9,299 bases of DNA from Elusimicrobiota bacterium (GCA_003557485.1 PWOI01000021.1:1-9299); one strand, 5' to 3'. Shown: positions 1,845 to 9,299, counted from the first letter of the stretch. Notes: generated by a model not told the origin, from the letters alone. A program made the numbers and translations.

Positions 1845-4115
1845 CTATTTTTTCTCAAGGGCCGATTCGGCGGCGGCGCGGACAAACCTGTCCTTATCTC
1901 TGAGGGCGTTTTCCAGAGCTCTTTCAATAGCGTGCCCGGAAAAATGCTTCAGGGCCTGTATTGCAGATATTTTAACTACACCACTCTGCCTGCGGAAAGA
2001 AAAACTGTACCATTTCGGTTTTTCAATTATACTTATAAGCGGCTCTACAGCCCTTTTATCCCCTATAGAAGCCAGGGCCATACAGGCTGCCTGGCGTATC
2101 ATATCAGATTCACCCTTTGAGGAAAGGGTTTTGGGAGAGACAATGTTTATGAGCTCTTCAACTGCAGGTTCATATTCAAGCTCTCCAAACATCCTTATTA
2201 CTTCCCTTCTTACAAGGTCGTCTCTGTCTTGAAGGCTTTGCATAAGGAATCTTCCCTTACGGTCATCCTCTGAATGTATACGGGGAAGAGTCAGAACAGC
2301 TTCCACTCTCACCCTCCTGTCAGGGTGGGTCAGAGCTTTTTTAAGATAAGAAAAAGCGAGGCTGGCGCTCTCCAGGGCCGGAAGCACCTGGACCAGCCTT
2401 TTCAGTTTTTCCGTTGATGTTTCTCGTTCAAATTCTCCTGCCATATACGACAGGGCGTCCCCGCCGATTTCCTTCAGAAGTGAGACCATATACATCCGCT
2501 GGCTGAAATTTTCACACTCCTTGATACTCTCAACAAGCGCCGGCACAATAAAGGCTCCCAATGCAACAGTAATACGGCGGGTATTCTCACGTATATCTCT
2601 ATCCGGGGAATCCAGGTCCTGAAGGACAATCTCCGCCGCGTCGCTGGAGGCGATGCCTTTAAGAAACCCTTCAGCATATTCCGGCCTTTTAACAAAATCC
2701 GGTGTTTTCTCTTCGGTATTGCGCCTGTACATCTCTATTACCGGGAGAGCCTTGCCGTATTCTTTCCTGCGGATGTACTGCTGGGCTTTCTTAAGCAGTA
2801 TTGAGGAAATCTCCTGATATATTTCTTCATCCCTTTCTTTTACTGACTGTTCCCGTATAGCTATGAAAAGGGTTTCGGAAGACTTGTTTGATATAAGGTC
2901 AAATACTCCGTAAAGTTTTTTCATAAGTAAAATAGCGCTGCTGCGGACGGCGAGCGTATCAGCCTGCAGGTCATCAAGAATTTTTTCAACGAGTTTTTTG
3001 ATAACTTCGTCCTCTCCGGCGGCATCAAGCGCTTTAAATATTTCCGGCAGTTCTTCCCTGACATCCCCCCCTATTATAGCCAGGCTGTCTTTTTCAAGTA
3101 TCTCATGGGCCCTTCGAAAAGAGAACGATGCCGATGACTTCCACATATCAACCGGAGGCGGGACAAGTTCATCCAGGTTGCTGTTGAGAAGCTCCCTGCA
3201 TATTTCAAGGGCCATTCCTCTGTCCTTAAAACAGTCAATCATAAACCTCACAGTGTTTTTTATATTATCAAGTTTGCCGTCCGAAGAGATCTGAGGGGAT
3301 AAAGCTTTCAGGTGCCTGTATGAGCTGATTAACCTGAAAACGGTTTCTTTAAGCTGGGGCTGTGTAAGGGAAGTATTCATCTTATCTGCTACTGCATCCC
3401 TGGCTCCTGTTTTTTTATTTAAAAACTGCGAAAGAAGTTCGGGTTTGAGCGAAAACAGCTTTTCAGCTATCTCCATCTTGGTCTCATCCCTTATGGTTCC
3501 CCCGGAGGTCATCAACTTCATTTCGTTTATCTCCTGTATTACCTTCATCAATTCATCGAGAGCCCCCCTGTTCTTCTCAAAGTGATCCTTTGCGCCGGAG
3601 ACAACCATATCATCACTGTCAACGGGGCGGTATATGCGTTCATTGACTTTTATATGCTCAACCCCGTTCTTCTTCAATTGTTCCCTTACCGCAGTTTCAA
3701 CTCTTGCCTCCCTGGAGCTTTTACCGGCGAGAGCAGACATAAAAACCGTGAGTTCCCTCATTGCAAGGCCGCAGCGGAAAGTAATGTTCCTGATATTCAG
3801 AGACGACAATATTTCTGCGGCTCCTTTAACTGCCTCCTTCTTATCTGTAGCCAGGTTTCCCGTTTTAATGAGTTTTCCGTTTATAAGAATATCGTTTTCA
3901 GACTCATTAATAACCAGAAGGTCAGCCCTGTCAAATATCTTTATTAAAACAGAATAAAATTTCCGTATGGACATCTCGGCGGGCTCAGATGAGGGAGGAT
4001 AAAGTTTTACGGCGGCAAACGAAGCTTTAAAACGGAAAAGAGCTTCAATCACCAGGTCAAAAGAATACCGGTCCCTCTCTATATCAAAACTTCCTGAGGC
4101 AGGACTTCTGTTCAT
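1845..4115 (-). CDS. HEAT-repeat protein with N-terminal regulatory-type domain
   Basis: A soluble 756-residue protein without signal peptide or membrane segment. Roughly residues 1-170 form a globular domain, with features such as LLVINESENDILINGKLIK and FRCGLAMRELTVFMSAL, of the kind I associate with HEAT-repeat or HD-GYP signalling proteins of deltaproteobacteria and related groups. The middle is mostly helical. From about residue 495 to the end there are tandem helical pairs of HEAT type, for example DPDRRVRVEAV-like, DRDDLVRREVIRMFGELE, MIRQAACMALASIGDKRAVE and DKDRFVRAAAESALE, the last ending the protein. HEAT arrays are protein-binding scaffolds; I see no catalytic motif. Its ATG directly follows the TGA of the receiver gene and there is no clear ribosome binding site, so translation is probably coupled. 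I infer that it works with the receiver as a signalling output or scaffold; the partner is unknown. Confidence 0.85.
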   Translation of the reverse strand: MNRSPASGSFDIERDRYSFDLVIEALFRFKASFAAVKLYPPSSEPAEMSIRKFYSVLIKIFDRADLLVINESENDILINGKLIKTGNLATDKKEAVKGAAEILSSLNIRNITFRCGLAMRELTVFMSALAGKSSREARVETAVREQLKKNGVEHIKVNERIYRPVDSDDMVVSGAKDHFEKNRGALDELMKVIQEINEMKLMTSGGTIRDETKMEIAEKLFSLKPELLSQFLNKKTGARDAVADKMNTSLTQPQLKETVFRLISSYRHLKALSPQISSDGKLDNIKNTVRFMIDCFKDRGMALEICRELLNSNLDELVPPPVDMWKSSASFSFRRAHEILEKDSLAIIGGDVREELPEIFKALDAAGEDEVIKKLVEKILDDLQADTLAVRSSAILLMKKLYGVFDLISNKSSETLFIAIREQSVKERDEEIYQEISSILLKKAQQYIRRKEYGKALPVIEMYRRNTEEKTPDFVKRPEYAEGFLKGIASSDAAEIVLQDLDSPDRDIRENTRRITVALGAFIVPALVESIKECENFSQRMYMVSLLKEIGGDALSYMAGEFERETSTEKLKRLVQVLPALESASLAFSYLKKALTHPDRRVRVEAVLTLPRIHSEDDRKGRFLMQSLQDRDDLVRREVIRMFGELEYEPAVEELINIVSPKTLSSKGESDMIRQAACMALASIGDKRAVEPLISIIEKPKWYSFSFRRQSGVVKISAIQALKHFSGHAIERALENALRDKDRFVRAAAESALEKK

Positions 4116-4554: not shown

Positions 4555-7140
4555 TCAATCTTCCTTGAGCTGCTTCTTCTCCTCGGGAGTCCTCTCCCTC
4601 ATCTCCAAAGCCCCGGAAAAACATTTCTGCGCGCATATAGAGCATCCTATGCATCTGGACGGGTCGGTCTCGGGGTGTTTCTCCCCGTCCAGTTCTATGG
4701 CAAGGTATGGGCACCTTGCGCAGTTGCCGCATTTAAGGCAGAGATCCGGGTCTATAAGGGAGGAAATCTTCTTCTCCGAAGACAGGTCCATAAAATCGGT
4801 TACGGCCTGCGGCTGCGCAACCCCTATTAAATCCTTTACTGATGAAAAACCCCTCTTCTTCATAAGAAAACTCAACCCGTTCACAAGCTCATCTATTATC
4901 CCATACCCGTATTTCATAACAATAGTGCAGAACTGAACAGTTTCAACTCCCAGGGCCAGAAAATGGGCTGCCTGCCTGTAATTCATAGGGCCGCCGTTTC
5001 CCGATATTGCCACCCCAATGGGAACTGCCCTTGCAAGGGTAAAATAGCTTATGGGCGCAACCCCCGCACCGCTCATACCGAGGACAACCCCGTCCTCCCA
5101 TTTCTCTTTTCCCCTCTCCTGGAAACCCAGTGAGGGAAAAGTGTTTGCCAGGGTTACGCCGGCTTTTTTGTTTGGATACTTATCCAGGACTCCTTTCACC
5201 TCTTTGATTATAGTTTCAATTGAAGTCACGGCCGCGGTCAACTTGAAAAGCTTGGGGATCTCCGGGTCGGAAACCTGCATAACCCAGTCAATAACTTTTG
5301 CCGTAAGCTCCGGCGACTGGGCAACTATATCACCCTCGGTTCCTTCCCCGCCCTGGGGACAGGAAAGAGAATACTCAATACCCATAGCCCCGGCATCCTC
5401 CAGCGCTTCGGTATTTGACTGCCACCCTTTCATATCCTCCAGGTCATTGCCGGTAACCGGCCCTCCCGTGGAGGCAATTGTCAGCCTGCCGGGGTACTCC
5501 TTTACCAACCTCTTAATTTCCGAAGAAACCCGGTCCATGAGATGTCCCGAAACGTTATCGCAGTTACCGTAGGTATCGGAAGAATACATATGCATATACT
5601 CTCCCGGTATATGTATGGGCCCTTCGGCAAAAGTTGTTTTCATAACCCCCCCTGCCCAGCCGGCCTCATAGGCCTTTTTCATCTGCTCATATCCGTCCGA
5701 AGGAGGAGCCGCGGAAAGAAGAAAAGGATTTATTATTTTCCTACCGAAAAATTCGGACTCAAGGCTGACAGGTGTTTTTATGTATCCGGGAAGAGACGAT
5801 TTGCTTCTTTTTTTGTCTTCTATAACGGGAACATCACTTTTCTGAAGAAAACTTTCAACTTCCAACGCGGCGTTCTTGCCGGCCGCAACAGCTTCCACAA
5901 CCGTAGAGGGGCCGTTTACGCAGTCACCGGCAAAAAAGATATTATCCCCCTCCCCACGCGGAAGAGACGCCCTGTTTCCTATGGCCATTATTACCGTATC
6001 TATATCCGGCCTCTTCTGCGCTGTCCCGGGAATACTCTTTATATTTTCAAGTAAAAACTCTTCCCCTTCAAGCGTTACTTTCTCTGTTTCAATTGATTCA
6101 ACCGCACCTGACTCCCCTTTTATGGAGAGTACCGCTGTTCGGGGATTAACCTCTATATTAAACTCCACAAGCTCGTCTCTTTCCCTGTCAGTGAGAGGCA
6201 TACCGGCATTGTTTTCCAGGCAGAATATTTCAACCCTGCCGGCACCTGACCTGACTGCCTTAACGGCGCAGTCCAGGGCCGTCGCCCCGCCCCCTATAAC
6301 GGCAACATTGCCGGAGAGACTGGAGTCACTATCCAGAAACTCAACAGCAGTTACCGCCATCTCCTGGCCTTCAATGCCCGGCATAACCGGATCCCACAAT
6401 CCGGCGGCTGCTATCACAGCATCATATTTCCCAGAGAGCCCGTACAGATCCTCAACCGGGTTTCCGCCTTTTACACTGACATCACCCAGACTCTTAATAA
6501 AATCAATATCACCACGCAGCATTTCCCGTTCAAGCCGGTAAGGGGGTATAAGGTTTGCCATACCCCCTGACCCTTCCCTCTTTTCATATATATCTACGCG
6601 ATGGCCTTTTCGGGCAAGAAAGGCCGCAGCGGCAAGGCCCGATGGCCCGGAGCCGACAACAGATATTTTCCTGCCGGTCTTCTTTACCGTTTCAAACTCT
6701 CCTATCCCGCAGCCCCGGCGGGCCCTCCATACAATTTCGGCCTGGAGGCAAGGTATATTTATGGGGCCGTCAAAAAGCTTACGGGAACACTCTGCCATGC
6801 AGAACTTATCGGGACATACCATTCCGCATACGCCTCCCAGGGGGTTGTCTTTCATTATAATCGCCGCTGAACGGGAGAAGTCTTCTCCCTGCATCTGGCG
6901 GGCAGCCATTATGAAATCGGCGGGAGAACAGTTTACCGGACAGCCACTGCGGCAGGGTTTTTCCTCGCAGAACTCGCACCTCTCAAGTTCGGCCTTAAGC
7001 TGAGCGTCGGTAAAAAGAAGTCCTTTGCTTTTATCTTTATATCTATACTTTTGTTCCGGAGAATTATAAATTTTTTCGGGATAATCTTCCGGTGTTTCCC
7101 TCAGTTTCAATCTTATTTTTAAGTGGTTAGTATATTTCAC
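4555..7140 (-). CDS. Dihydropyrimidine dehydrogenase-type fusion (PreT-PreA-like) Fe-S flavoprotein
   Basis: This has the domain order of eukaryotic DPD in one chain of 861-863 residues (mammalian DPD about 1025; bacteria usually split it into PreT and PreA). Residues below are numbered from TTG 7146. An N-terminal Fe-S domain has C57/C60/C65/C69 and C107/C111/C116/C120, with Gln135 matching the unusual DPD Gln ligand. The FAD site is GSGPSG (165-170) plus AGDC (406-409); the second nucleotide site is GGGATA (285-290). A DHOD-like FMN barrel spans about 461-790, with candidate catalytic Cys596 in SLSCPQG, then two C-terminal ferredoxin motifs (C803-C812, C832-C842). The family moves electrons from NAD(P)H through FAD and Fe-S to FMN and reduces uracil or thymine. 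Here the FRR motif that binds NADPH phosphate is replaced by FCLEN, hinting at NADH, and one substrate Asn is Ser. I chose GTG 7140, with GAGG seven to eight bases upstream; TTG 7146 has no room for a ribosome binding site. First gene of the operon. Confidence 0.88.
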   Translation of the reverse strand: MKYTNHLKIRLKLRETPEDYPEKIYNSPEQKYRYKDKSKGLLFTDAQLKAELERCEFCEEKPCRSGCPVNCSPADFIMAARQMQGEDFSRSAAIIMKDNPLGGVCGMVCPDKFCMAECSRKLFDGPINIPCLQAEIVWRARRGCGIGEFETVKKTGRKISVVGSGPSGLAAAAFLARKGHRVDIYEKREGSGGMANLIPPYRLEREMLRGDIDFIKSLGDVSVKGGNPVEDLYGLSGKYDAVIAAAGLWDPVMPGIEGQEMAVTAVEFLDSDSSLSGNVAVIGGGATALDCAVKAVRSGAGRVEIFCLENNAGMPLTDRERDELVEFNIEVNPRTAVLSIKGESGAVESIETEKVTLEGEEFLLENIKSIPGTAQKRPDIDTVIMAIGNRASLPRGEGDNIFFAGDCVNGPSTVVEAVAAGKNAALEVESFLQKSDVPVIEDKKRSKSSLPGYIKTPVSLESEFFGRKIINPFLLSAAPPSDGYEQMKKAYEAGWAGGVMKTTFAEGPIHIPGEYMHMYSSDTYGNCDNVSGHLMDRVSSEIKRLVKEYPGRLTIASTGGPVTGNDLEDMKGWQSNTEALEDAGAMGIEYSLSCPQGGEGTEGDIVAQSPELTAKVIDWVMQVSDPEIPKLFKLTAAVTSIETIIKEVKGVLDKYPNKKAGVTLANTFPSLGFQERGKEKWEDGVVLGMSGAGVAPISYFTLARAVPIGVAISGNGGPMNYRQAAHFLALGVETVQFCTIVMKYGYGIIDELVNGLSFLMKKRGFSSVKDLIGVAQPQAVTDFMDLSSEKKISSLIDPDLCLKCGNCARCPYLAIELDGEKHPETDPSRCIGCSICAQKCFSGALEMRERTPEEKKQLKED
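6924..7048. repeat. 125-bp direct repeat, copy A (inside the oxidoreductase gene)
   Basis: This segment encodes residues about 34-74 of the DPD-type protein (from YRYKDKSK to the first cysteine cluster). It recurs in the same orientation at 8309-8433 with only two mismatches (6994 C versus T, 7021 T versus G), a constant offset of 1385. Both differences are silent third-codon changes. Confidence 0.97.
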
Positions 7141-7142
7141 TC

Positions 7143-7217
7143 TCAAACCTCAACTGTATTTCTTGGCAGGGGGGTTACGATGTCTATTCCTATTCCCACC
7201 GCCGTTCTCACTTCCAT
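7143..7217 (-). other. Possible 24-codon upstream ORF or leader peptide
   Basis: On the minus strand an ATG at 7217 opens a 24-codon frame (it starts MEVRTAVGIGIDIV and ends NTVEV) whose TGA lies two bases before the GTG start of the large oxidoreductase. The frame remains open only six codons upstream of the ATG. There is no good ribosome binding site before the ATG. It could be a translationally coupled leader, a remnant of a gene end, or chance. I do not recognise a family. Confidence 0.2.
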
Positions 7218-7246
7218 TTGACAAACTTGAATAATTTAATTATCAT
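7218..7246 (+). promoter_or_regulatory. Sigma-70-like promoter on the plus strand
   Basis: A perfect -35 TTGACA (7218-7223), a 17-base spacer and -10 TATCAT (7241-7246). No plus-strand gene follows; a hairpin terminator starts about 10 bases after the predicted start near 7253. The stretch is AT-rich, so a chance match is possible, but the -35 and spacing are ideal. Confidence 0.5.
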
Positions 7247-7252
7247 TATTAC

Positions 7253-7313
7253 AGAATCATGATGAGAGGCAAACCGAAGGGTTCCGTCCCTAGGCAATGC
7301 CTCTCCTTTTTTT
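7253..7313 (+). ncRNA. Candidate small RNA of about 60 nt
   Basis: Inferred from a promoter (7218-7246) followed directly by a strong hairpin with T-run (7264-7313) on the same strand, with no ORF. The transcript would be nearly all structure: an outer 8-bp stem, a 6x6 internal loop, and an inner 4-bp stem (AGGG/CCCT) capped by six bases. It lies opposite the leader between the NYN gene and the oxidoreductase gene and just reaches the NYN stop codon. It matches no RNA family I can name. Confidence 0.3.
7264..7313 (+). terminator. Hairpin plus T-run terminator
   Basis: GAGAGGCA (7264-7271) pairs perfectly with TGCCTCTC (7298-7305), and a run of seven T follows at 7307-7313, so it acts on plus-strand transcription. 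Read on the minus strand the sequence after the hairpin is ATCATGATT, without a T-run, so it should not efficiently terminate the NYN transcript. Confidence 0.6.
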
Positions 7314-7794
7314 AGCCCCTTTCTTTGTATTCCAATTTATTTTTCAAATCATTCATAAAAACAATATGCTTCATAAATTCACGAAGCAAGGAAGAATAAC
7401 TGTCTTTATCCGGAATCATAAGTTTCAAAAGTTTCTCTTTCCTTGTCAGGTATTTAATGAGGCAATGAAAATCACCATCGCCGGTTGTTATAATAGCCTT
7501 ATCAAAATTTTCATATTCAATCATTGTGTGTAAAACCAGCTCCGCATCTACATTCCCTTTAATTCTTCCACCTGGGAACCGTAACGTAGGCTTAAATATT
7601 AAGATAAAGCCGGCTTCCTGCAGGGAAGTATATAAGTCTTGATATCTATTGACATATCCTAAAAAGAGAAATGCCTTCGTCACATTGTATTTATCCCTTA
7701 AATATATTCGATATCTGGCAAAATCTAGGGACCATCCCTGATTTTTGATTGAAAGATTTAAATTCTGGCTATCTATAAAAGCGAAGTTATTCAT
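7312..7794 (-). CDS. NYN domain (LabA/DUF88-like) protein, putative RNase
   Basis: A compact 160-residue single-domain protein of the NYN family, which has a PIN-like fold and is thought to act as a metal-dependent ribonuclease. The acidic residues are in the expected places: Asp8 in FIDSQNL (with Asn11), Asp83 in KGNVDAELVLH, and Asp106/Asp108 in TTGDGDF. Its length is typical for the short NYN proteins common in environmental genomes. The start is ATG at 7794, with AAGGAG three to four bases upstream. It has its own predicted promoter and a palindrome in the leader. It lies 172 bases upstream of the oxidoreductase and has no evident functional link to it; the surrounding scar and the direct repeats suggest it may have arrived with an insertion. 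RNA target unknown. Confidence 0.88.
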   Translation of the reverse strand: MNNFAFIDSQNLNLSIKNQGWSLDFARYRIYLRDKYNVTKAFLFLGYVNRYQDLYTSLQEAGFILIFKPTLRFPGGRIKGNVDAELVLHTMIEYENFDKAIITTGDGDFHCLIKYLTRKEKLLKLMIPDKDSYSSLLREFMKHIVFMNDLKNKLEYKERG

Positions 7795-7811
7795 ACTCTC
7801 CTTTTCACTGA

Positions 7812-7824
7812 TCGCAATTTGCGA
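7812..7824. promoter_or_regulatory. 13-bp palindrome, possible operator
   Basis: TCGCAA-T-TTGCGA, a perfect 6+1+6 inverted repeat, lies between the predicted transcription start (about 7858) and the ribosome binding site of the NYN gene. Its position and symmetry suit a dimeric repressor site, but it could equally be a weak RNA hairpin or chance. Confidence 0.3.
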
Positions 7825-7864
7825 CCGGCTTTAATCTAAAAATACAATAATGCGATCCCGCCAT

Positions 7865-7873
7865 ATAATATCA
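7865..7873 (-). promoter_or_regulatory. Extended -10 promoter for the NYN gene
   Basis: On the minus strand TGATATTAT gives TG-n-TATTAT, an extended -10 with a good core; the -35 region (TTACAT near 7888-7893) is poor, as is usual for extended -10 promoters. The predicted leader is about 64 nt. Confidence 0.4.
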
Positions 7874-7928
7874 TATTCTGGTTAAAAATGTAACAAAAGA
7901 CGTATAATGTTGCGTTTCTGCCACATGC

Positions 7929-8065
7929 CTATTCACTCTCAGATAATTCCTTATCTATCTTGTCCACCTTCTCTCCCAGGTATCCAATGCGCAGGGGTTT
8001 TTGAACATAATCAGTTATGCCCAGGCTCTGCGCTTTCTTTACTTTATCAACTCTATTATATGCGT
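7929..8065 (-). pseudogene. C-terminal remnant of a response-regulator receiver domain
   Basis: The minus-strand frame reading KKAQSLGITDYVQKPL, then GYLGEKVDKI and ELSESE before a TAG at 7929-7931, is the last alpha/beta unit of a receiver domain: the A..LG..DY..KP signature with the conserved Lys-Pro. The phospho-acceptor half is absent. The frame is open upstream to 8132, but that part runs through the transposon-end-like repeats, so it is not receiver sequence. The fragment differs from the intact receiver at 4116-4493, so it comes from another regulator or hybrid kinase. I see nothing else between its stop and the NYN promoter. Confidence 0.6.
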
Positions 8066-8110
8066 ATCCCGGTAACTTTTGCCACCCATTCCGGCCAACT
8101 TCTGCCACCC
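8066..8110. repeat. Two tandem 22-23 bp repeats, IS21-like transposon end
   Basis: Positions 8066-8087 and 8088-8110 share the pattern AT-CCGG-AACTT-TGCCACCC in tandem. Multiple short repeats at a terminus are typical of IS21-family elements, and the CCGG/GGTGGCA words resemble IS21-type ends as I remember them. No istA or istB is present. A small hairpin, CTTCG-GAG-CGAAG (8112-8124), follows at once. The IS family assignment is inference; the repeats are directly visible. Confidence 0.45.
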
Positions 8111-8144
8111 CCTTCGGAGCGAAGCGACGCAAAGTCTTTTCTAT

Positions 8145-8237
8145 TTACATAACAAGCGGCAGGCCCTCATTGGCTCCGATATTGTTAAAAAAATTACCTC
8201 CGTCCAATTCATTCCTTGTAAGAGCGTGGAACAAACT
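8145..8237 (-). pseudogene. Unidentified 30-codon gene tail
   Basis: A minus-strand open stretch with no start codon reads SLFHALTRNELDGG, then FFNNIGANEGLPLVM and TAA. Its composition looks like real protein, and its length and lack of a start fit the tail of a deleted gene. I do not recognise the family. It shares its strand with the receiver remnant and the oxidoreductase fragment on either side. Confidence 0.25.
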
Positions 8238-8267
8238 CTATAATATCAATAAAACAAGTATAATACA

Positions 8268-8435
8268 CTAAGCTGTCGCTCTTGCTAAAGTCATTACAAA
8301 GTCGGATAGAGAACAGTTTACCGGACAGCCACTGCGGCAGGGTTTTTCCTCGCAGAACTCGCACCTCTCAAGTTCGGCTTTAAGCTGAGCGTCGGTAAAA
8401 AGAAGGCCTTTGCTTTTATCTTTATATCTATACAT
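8268..8435 (-). pseudogene. Truncated copy of the oxidoreductase N-terminal Fe-S motif (55 codons)
   Basis: An ATG at 8435 opens a 55-residue frame ending at TAG 8268-8270. After Met, residues 2-42 are identical to the DPD-type protein from YRYKDKSK through the cysteine cluster C25/C28/C33/C37/C41; the rest (LSDFVMTLARATA) differs from the intact gene (PADFIMAARQMQG), though SDFVM and ADFIM are still alike. Unlike a dead fragment, it has an excellent start: GAGGTGAT six bases before the ATG and a near-consensus promoter. It lacks the second cysteine set, so it could not build the normal cluster pair. It is either a decaying gene start or an expressed 55-residue iron-sulfur micro-protein. It lacks the 33-residue extension that precedes YRYK in the intact gene. 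Confidence 0.6.
8309..8433. repeat. 125-bp direct repeat, copy B (truncated gene start)
   Basis: This copy is 123/125 identical to 6924-7048, in the same orientation at offset 1385. It ends sharply at the base before the ATG context on one side, and fades into weak but in-frame similarity on the other (8289-8308 against 6904-6923). Confidence 0.97.
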
Positions 8436-8437
8436 AT

Positions 8438-8500
8438 ATCACCTCACATTTCTTATGCAGTTTCGGTAATTATTGTATACATATAAAAAGCTAATTTCAA
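8438..8500 (-). promoter_or_regulatory. Sigma-70 promoter and ribosome binding site for the truncated Fe-S ORF
   Basis: On the minus strand: -35 TTGAAA (8500-8495), a 17-base spacer, -10 TACAAT (8477-8472), each 5/6 to consensus. Transcription should start near 8465, followed by the ribosome binding site GAGGTGAT (8445-8438) six bases before the ATG at 8435. This is the best promoter/ribosome-binding-site combination in the window. Confidence 0.6.
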
Positions 8501-8551: not shown

Positions 8552-8941
8552 CTAGTTGAGGTTGTACCTGAATCTCCTGGTCCTGCCCTGTATTATTATA
8601 TACCCGGGAGTTACCTCAACAAGCCTGTAATCTCTTATGAAATCATGTCTTCTGTAAACTTCCCCTCCTATAATAGCATACAGGACTCTTCCTTCACGGA
8701 GAACTCCCTGAAAGTTCATATAAGGGGCAGGCTCTACTTCAGGTTCGGGTTCAGGTTCCGGCTCATCAAAATCATCAAATTCTTCTTCAGCATATCCATC
8801 AATATCTACATCTACCGTCTCATACTGCTCATCAGACAAACTGTCTACGAAATCATACCAGAAAACCCTCAAGTCCCTACCCCTTACAGCAAAGAGAAGG
8901 ACAACGGCAACAGCCAGAAGAATAATATATTTCAGTCTCAT
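8552..8941 (-). CDS. Single-pass membrane protein with secretin-accessory-like C-terminal domain
   Basis: 129 residues in three parts. Residues 5-19 are a hydrophobic segment after MRLK, so the protein is probably anchored in the inner membrane with its bulk outside the cytoplasm. Residues about 37-73 are very acidic and end in an EPEPEPEPEVEP linker. Residues 76-129 read as a small beta domain: FQGVLREGRVLYAIIGGEVY, then YRLVEVTPGYIIIQ and a basic RRFRYNL end. The scheme 'effect of a signal on an inner value, Aix-gG-y, l-V--i-pg-iii' is that of the C-terminal domains of GspB, MshK and PilP-like proteins that support secretins in type II secretion or type IV pili. That assignment is by pattern only. 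The ATG is nine bases after the stop of the S74-domain gene and has no clear ribosome binding site, so translational coupling is likely. Confidence 0.75.
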   Translation of the reverse strand: MRLKYIILLAVAVVLLFAVRGRDLRVFWYDFVDSLSDEQYETVDVDIDGYAEEEFDDFDEPEPEPEPEVEPAPYMNFQGVLREGRVLYAIIGGEVYRRHDFIRDYRLVEVTPGYIIIQGRTRRFRYNLN

Positions 8942-8950
8942 CTTTTAAAT

Positions 8951-9299
8951 TTAACGCAACTGTTCTTCAATTCTCTCCAGGGCAGCCCTGAGCTCCTGTA
9001 TATGGGCCTCCTGTCTCTCAATCTGCTTCTGCTGGGTTTTCACAACTTCCGTAAGATAAAGTGGGATCCTATTGTAATGTATGGATTCTACTTTGCCATC
9101 CAAAAAACTGACCAATCTATCCAATCCCAAATCTACAAAATCCTCAGCTATATATCCTATACTCTCTTCCCCTGTACTTTTGCAGTTATATACTTTAGAT
9201 TCTGTTTTTAGAATCTTAGAAAAATCTTCCTCAAAAGGCCGAATATTTTTCTTGTATCGTTTTGAAGAAGTCATTCTAACTAGATCTCCTCTTTTATGA
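8951..9299 (-). CDS. Peptidase S74-type intramolecular chaperone domain protein (probably 5' partial)
   Basis: The C-terminal domain carries the S74 start pattern SSKRYKKNI, equivalent to the common SDxRxKxNI, with the Ser and the Lys five residues on that form the self-cleavage dyad. It continues with IGYIAEDFVDLGLDRLV and VESIHYNRIPLYLTEVVK, and ends in a coiled coil (about 30 residues rich in Q, E and I). Such domains help phage tail fibres and bacterial surface proteins fold as trimers and then cut themselves off. The frame is open to the window edge, so a longer fibre or adhesin upstream is likely. However, an ATG at 9274, with GAGGAG eleven bases upstream, would give a 107-residue protein that starts exactly at the domain. 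It overlaps nothing and is followed closely by the membrane-protein gene. Confidence 0.82.
   Translation of the reverse strand, partial: HKRGDLVRMTSSKRYKKNIRPFEEDFSKILKTESKVYNCKSTGEESIGYIAEDFVDLGLDRLVSFLDGKVESIHYNRIPLYLTEVVKTQQKQIERQEAHIQELRAALERIEEQLR

Follow-up and report, generated by a model that had tools for sequence, protein, structure and literature searches.

Several described systems meet at the locus analysed here. TnGBS/ISLre2 (p-MULT 3) and some ISKra4-group (p-MULT 4) elements insert ahead of sigma-A promoters with a constant spacing, which amounts to 15-17 bp in the case of TnGBS (PMC3942029). The locus holds one end of a repeated element that resembles these promoter-targeting Mutator-like elements in terminating at a fixed distance upstream of promoters of the sigma-70/A type, in one orientation; it differs from TnGBS in that the distance is about 19-21 bp, and its membership of the family is putative. 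Another terminus recalls the IS21 family, ISAs29 in particular, in its TGCGTATyCCGG... sequence with CCATTCCGGCCAAC and repeated sub-units, but here there is a single end, and neither istA nor istB is present among the ORFs of the window. A further segment aligns to the N-terminus of a putative toxin from toxin-antitoxin pairs associated with DUF2283, except that only about 31 codons are left, fused to another gene, and that the antitoxin gene is absent; no full-length DUF2283-linked toxin with a partner antitoxin was found at the locus. The gene to which these pieces are attached shares its domain layout, on a single chain, with the NAD-dependent dihydropyrimidine dehydrogenase PreT/PreA and the single-chain eukaryotic DPD, whereas the enzyme of about 830 residues scores below the NCBIfam equivalog cut-offs.

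The window, that is, the whole stretch of DNA analysed, is an entire contig of 9,299 bp (C89) from a 2.07-Mb MAG with 212 contigs and 87% completeness. Its species is represented by this one MAG, and the analysis was made from the assembled sequence. Its relatives and the matches of its mobile pieces assign it to the Elusimicrobiota. Read along the gene, the arrangement is the native 5' end with one 125-bp copy, then debris, then the second 125-bp copy with the native body (Table 1). The long reading frame encodes a PreT-like half (Fer4_20 and FAD/NAD domains), then a PreA-like half and C-terminal ferredoxin clusters, which is the order expected of a PreT-PreA or DPD-like enzyme. It scores 214 bits against a cut-off of 335 for PRK08318 and 234 against 516 for PRK12771, and the substrate is therefore presumptive. 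In a genome of the same genus (G001) the orthologue immediately follows a dihydropyrimidinase-like gene (assigned by reading the sequence, without a profile), a neighbour that would fit a presumed role in pyrimidine catabolism. Codons 1-33 of the 863-aa frame are foreign, and a GTG at 7140 provides an alternative start, for which a GAGG is better spaced than it is for TTG 7146.

The direct repeat described in the initial annotation was recovered by alignment with the same coordinates, identity, strand and frame: the two copies agree at 123 of 125 positions and are spaced 1,385 bp apart. Their length at this identity excludes a chance origin. Both mismatches, at 7021/8406 (GGA/GGC) and 6994/8379 (AAG/AAA), fall on third positions and are synonymous, and the longest exact run is about 70 bp. 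On one side the boundary of the repeat is precisely the G in the ATG of copy B (8435-8433). On the other, towards the gene body, copy B runs on into a diverged extension that keeps the frame (SDFVM versus ADFIM) and whose 13/20 match beyond the 125 bp is equalled by only 6 of 18,558 comparison offsets, a rarity that points to either real homology or microhomology at the junction.

Which of the two copies marks the start of the native gene? In G001 the gene is uninterrupted, codes for 831 aa and begins at exactly the position of copy B's ATG, with the N-terminus MYKYKNKSK (MYKYKNKSKALLFTDAQL). When one copy and the 1,260-bp insert are removed in silico, a single open frame of 831 aa plus stop results, rather than the 829-830 codons initially given for the deletion product. 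The promoter, ribosome binding site and ATG that had been proposed ahead of copy B are all in place, with 10 of 12 promoter positions matching at 8500-8472 and a GAGGTG immediately 5' of the ATG. The block upstream of copy B aligns to G001 with a score of 19, above 2000 of 2000 shuffles, and the sequence upstream of copy A yields a marginal gapped alignment (p 0.04). Because copy B has its start and its promoter block in common with G001, and because the fusion product is 831 aa long, copy B marks where the native gene begins, and copy A now leads the displaced body. The intact gene and the promoter block of G001 also support the earlier suggestion of an insertion that doubled the gene start and supplied a replacement 5' end; the possibility that relatives natively carry the 33-residue extension was examined as well, and the extension is absent from all 13 orthologue loci examined. 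One same-genus genome was compared, so that the empty site is read from an orthologue of 77% identity and not from a sister strain. Upstream of copy B, the stretch 8552-9274 encodes a 129-aa membrane-anchored protein that belongs to no family and a protein of the Peptidase_S74 type (endosialidase chaperone); G001 has the dihydropyrimidinase-like gene in that place, so the upstream neighbourhood differs too.

Table 1. Features of the 9,299-bp window, with positions counted from its first letter.
Feature	Position	Strand	Basis or remark
Fused preT-preA (dihydropyrimidine-dehydrogenase-like) ORF, 863 aa from TTG 7146	4555..7146	-	Profiles and orthologues
Repeat copy A, corresponding to native codons 2-42, at the front of the gene body	6924..7048	-	Self-comparison
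Probable N-terminal piece left from a toxin-like gene (DUF2283 as partner family), reading in frame into copy A	7049..7146	-	Weak protein match
End of repeated mobile element	7154..7198	+	End (7198) 19 bp before TTGACA at 7218
Promoter TTGACA-17-TATCAT of hairpin RNA gene, strong, near-consensus	7218..7246	+	
Conserved hairpin and T-run; small RNA gene that converges with the NYN gene	7264..7312	+	
NYN-domain (PIN-like nuclease) gene, 160 aa	7312..7794	-	Profile
Promoter region with inverted repeat, ahead of NYN gene	7917-7865		
Inverted repeat AAACGCAACA-12-TGTTACATTT, overlapping -35 of NYN promoter	7887..7917	-	Pattern search
C-terminal fragment of response-regulator gene, truncated by the IS21-like end	7929..8060	-	Intact homologue in G005 (L053)
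IS21-family-like element end, two ~20-bp sub-repeats (CCGGyMAACTTyTGCCACCC), reads inward to the right	8061..8110	+	ISAs29 match
AT-rich stretch, first insert piece in minus-strand order	8308-8111		
Truncated ORF from native ATG, 55 codons then stop	8268..8435	-	ORF reading
Diverged extension of copy B	8289..8308	-	13/20 identical to copy A's continuation
Repeat copy B, native 5' end behind its own promoter and ATG	8309..8433	-	Self-comparison
Native promoter TTGAAA-17-TACAAT	8472..8500	-	Conserved in G001 (GGTTGAAnTTAnCT..TATGTATAnAAT)

The insert, 1,260 bp in length and located after native codon 42, consists of ends of mobile elements and pieces of genes heaped about a complete NYN gene and a hairpin RNA, and most of its parts have a GC content of 0.32-0.41, compared with 0.51 in the gene body. 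The similarity of the IS21-like end to ISAs29 (79.5% over 39 bp) starts exactly at the terminus beside istB; with an E-value of about 6, which alone is not significant, the match would be persuasive by position only. The predicted hairpin is stable (z -3.4), and its 21-mer core is found, identical, in exactly 3 of 145 genomes; these belong to different families and are the same three in which the NYN gene's 3' half was found. The hairpin RNA matches no Rfam family, an Rfam scan of the window returned nothing above chance, and a tRNA search of the window found none. No source for the insert turned up in the rest of the assembly, a plasmid search with it gave no match, and no recombinase, integrase or excisionase is encoded among its ORFs.

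At the NYN promoter lies a 31-bp inverted repeat (AAAYGYAACATTA..TTGTTRCRTT), further copies of which occur in relatives (L150, L151, L153-L155). There it precedes unrelated cassettes of toxin-antitoxin type, namely DUF433+DUF5615, DUF4160+DUF2442, DUF4258+DUF2283 and a PIN-domain pair, and after one additional copy come ORFs without a family. Possibly, then, this repeat is an operator shared by unrelated toxin-antitoxin cassettes.

The promoter-linked element is far from confined to this locus: its terminus recurs at several places in the same MAG and at many in the genomes of other Elusimicrobiota, where it frequently sits at the end of a contig, as repeats do (L042-L045, L050, L060, L077-L098). 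Among 29 deduplicated flanks, position 20 is T in 24, position 21 is T in 28 and position 22 is G in 19, with an AT-rich -10 region further on. In nearly all of the 29 copies, 19-21 bp separate the end of the element from the -35 box downstream of it, a fixed distance in a single orientation. One genome (G005) has the homologous hairpin-gene promoter with no element upstream, and so presents the empty site. The element's transposase was not found, the contigs breaking inside the element, and a search for its other end at 40 contig starts of one genome (G008) produced no clear candidate. An IS481-like identity for the segment at 7154-7198 was considered and withdrawn: the sole HTH transposase fragment (L083) is a single occurrence at the end of a contig and possibly part of a separate IS. 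At another locus (L043, G000:C141) two tandem repeats of about 125 bp with the promoter-linked terminus, at 3100-3230 and 4862-4990, each stand before a different gene, and may be a short non-autonomous form of the element.

As for the 33-residue extension, its only match with E below 0.02 among 386 genomes (E 0.007, 37% over 30 residues) is to the N-terminus of a 93-aa ORF that directly adjoins a DUF2283 gene in a toxin-antitoxin-like arrangement; one relative (G004) also has a DUF4258 and DUF2283 pair. A Pfam search with 31 of its residues found no family, tblastn against plasmids gave no match, and relatives contain nothing close to it. With a match of this weakness, the extension is best read as the putative start of a toxin-like gene that was beheaded and joined in frame to native codon 2.

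How might such an arrangement have come about? We favour, with a probability of about three in four, a foreign or ectopic insert after native codon 42 together with a duplicated gene start, both most likely the product of one illegitimate event. The native state was that of G001, with a promoter, an ATG and an 831-codon preT-preA fusion. Comparison shows that some 1.26 kb of foreign or ectopic DNA entered after codon 42 and that the first 125 bp were doubled to flank it, the order of events being our reconstruction. As the last piece of the insert, the first 31 or so codons of a toxin-like gene, including its own start codon, would have become continuous in frame with codon 2 of the native gene. 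The gene body would thereby have received an alternative 5' end, and the native promoter is left with a 55-codon stub. Imagine that replication or repair departed in the region of codon 42, took ectopic DNA as its template and resumed at a short AGTAT match beside the start codon: with the return point 125 bp upstream of the departure, insert and duplication would have arisen together.

Ordinary transposition leads to far shorter target duplications, and template switching of this kind and single-crossover integration are the best candidates for the origin of the 125-bp duplication. Neither the drop from 98% to about 65% identity past copy B nor the restriction of differences to synonymous sites decides between them, and a clean duplication leaves the 13/20 extension beyond copy B unexplained. 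That extension could be donor sequence if a circle or replicon carrying a 5' piece of the gene from a related strain had integrated by a single (Campbell-type) crossover, an event that would also yield exactly one copy per side and in which the two synonymous differences look allelic rather than like decay. This near rival, possible but in our view rather unlikely, nonetheless demands prior capture of the gene fragment and a circle of which no example is known, and from one donor allele 125 near-identical bp followed abruptly by about 65% identity would be unexpected. Direct att-like repeats do lie at both ends of the insert within the target gene, as would remain from a site-specific integrative element that restores the start of its target gene; duplication of a gene end around an insert, with an alternative 5' end, is the layout of such elements, and an attP carrying a gene fragment would suit an identity core with a diverged extension. 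However, the insert is merely about 1.26 kb long and has neither integrase nor excisionase, and no related element is present at the orthologous genes of relatives, which makes this origin decidedly improbable. Finally, on a 9.3-kb MAG contig whose longest exact repeat run, at about 70 bp, is within the k-mer range of assemblers, metagenome strain variants could have been joined into a chimera. This, too, is improbable, as two unusual junctions, that of copy B with its tail and that of the toxin remnant with copy A, are each unique and lie outside repeats, so that real DNA must contain them; an alternative resolution of the repeat would give an intact gene and, besides it, either a circle of 1385 bp or a tandem array.

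The initial annotation had also raised a reversible switch, on/off or high/low, and this part of it found no support. A programmed switch would alternate, through recombination between the repeats, between an inserted state (weak or off) and a deleted state driven by the strong native promoter. Deletion would indeed produce a perfect native gene, and repeats of 125 bp at 98% identity are long enough for RecA-type recombination. But direct repeats delete rather than invert, and a crossover between them loses the 1385-bp unit as a circle, so that the change is one-way unless the circle is re-integrated. Moreover, the locus has neither a reversible topology (inversion or slippage) nor a dedicated recombinase, the insert is made of degraded mobile pieces, the arrangement is absent from the other genomes compared, and the single MAG of this species offers no example of the deleted form. 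We consider a programmed switch highly improbable; an expression switch at this locus is unsupported rather than disproved. Very little credence, likewise, attaches to the notion that the 1385-bp unit (the repeat plus the insert with NYN gene, hairpin and toxin start) is a small mobile cassette able to enter the 125-bp gene start and to leave it again, which, if true, would give a host gene a replaceable 5' end. What does seem plausible is rare spontaneous reversion, since RecA-type recombination between the repeats could excise the insert and would restore the native gene precisely.

The locus is thus an ordinary, if well-layered, insertion scar. For annotation, this places the true gene start at copy B and marks the 33-residue extension as foreign, with a gene body that may now be expressed from a borrowed start. 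It offers a clear example of how duplications of a gene start around mobile debris can mimic expression switches. The promoter-linked element in Elusimicrobiota, and the operator-like repeat before unrelated toxin-antitoxin cassettes, may be worth more than the locus itself.
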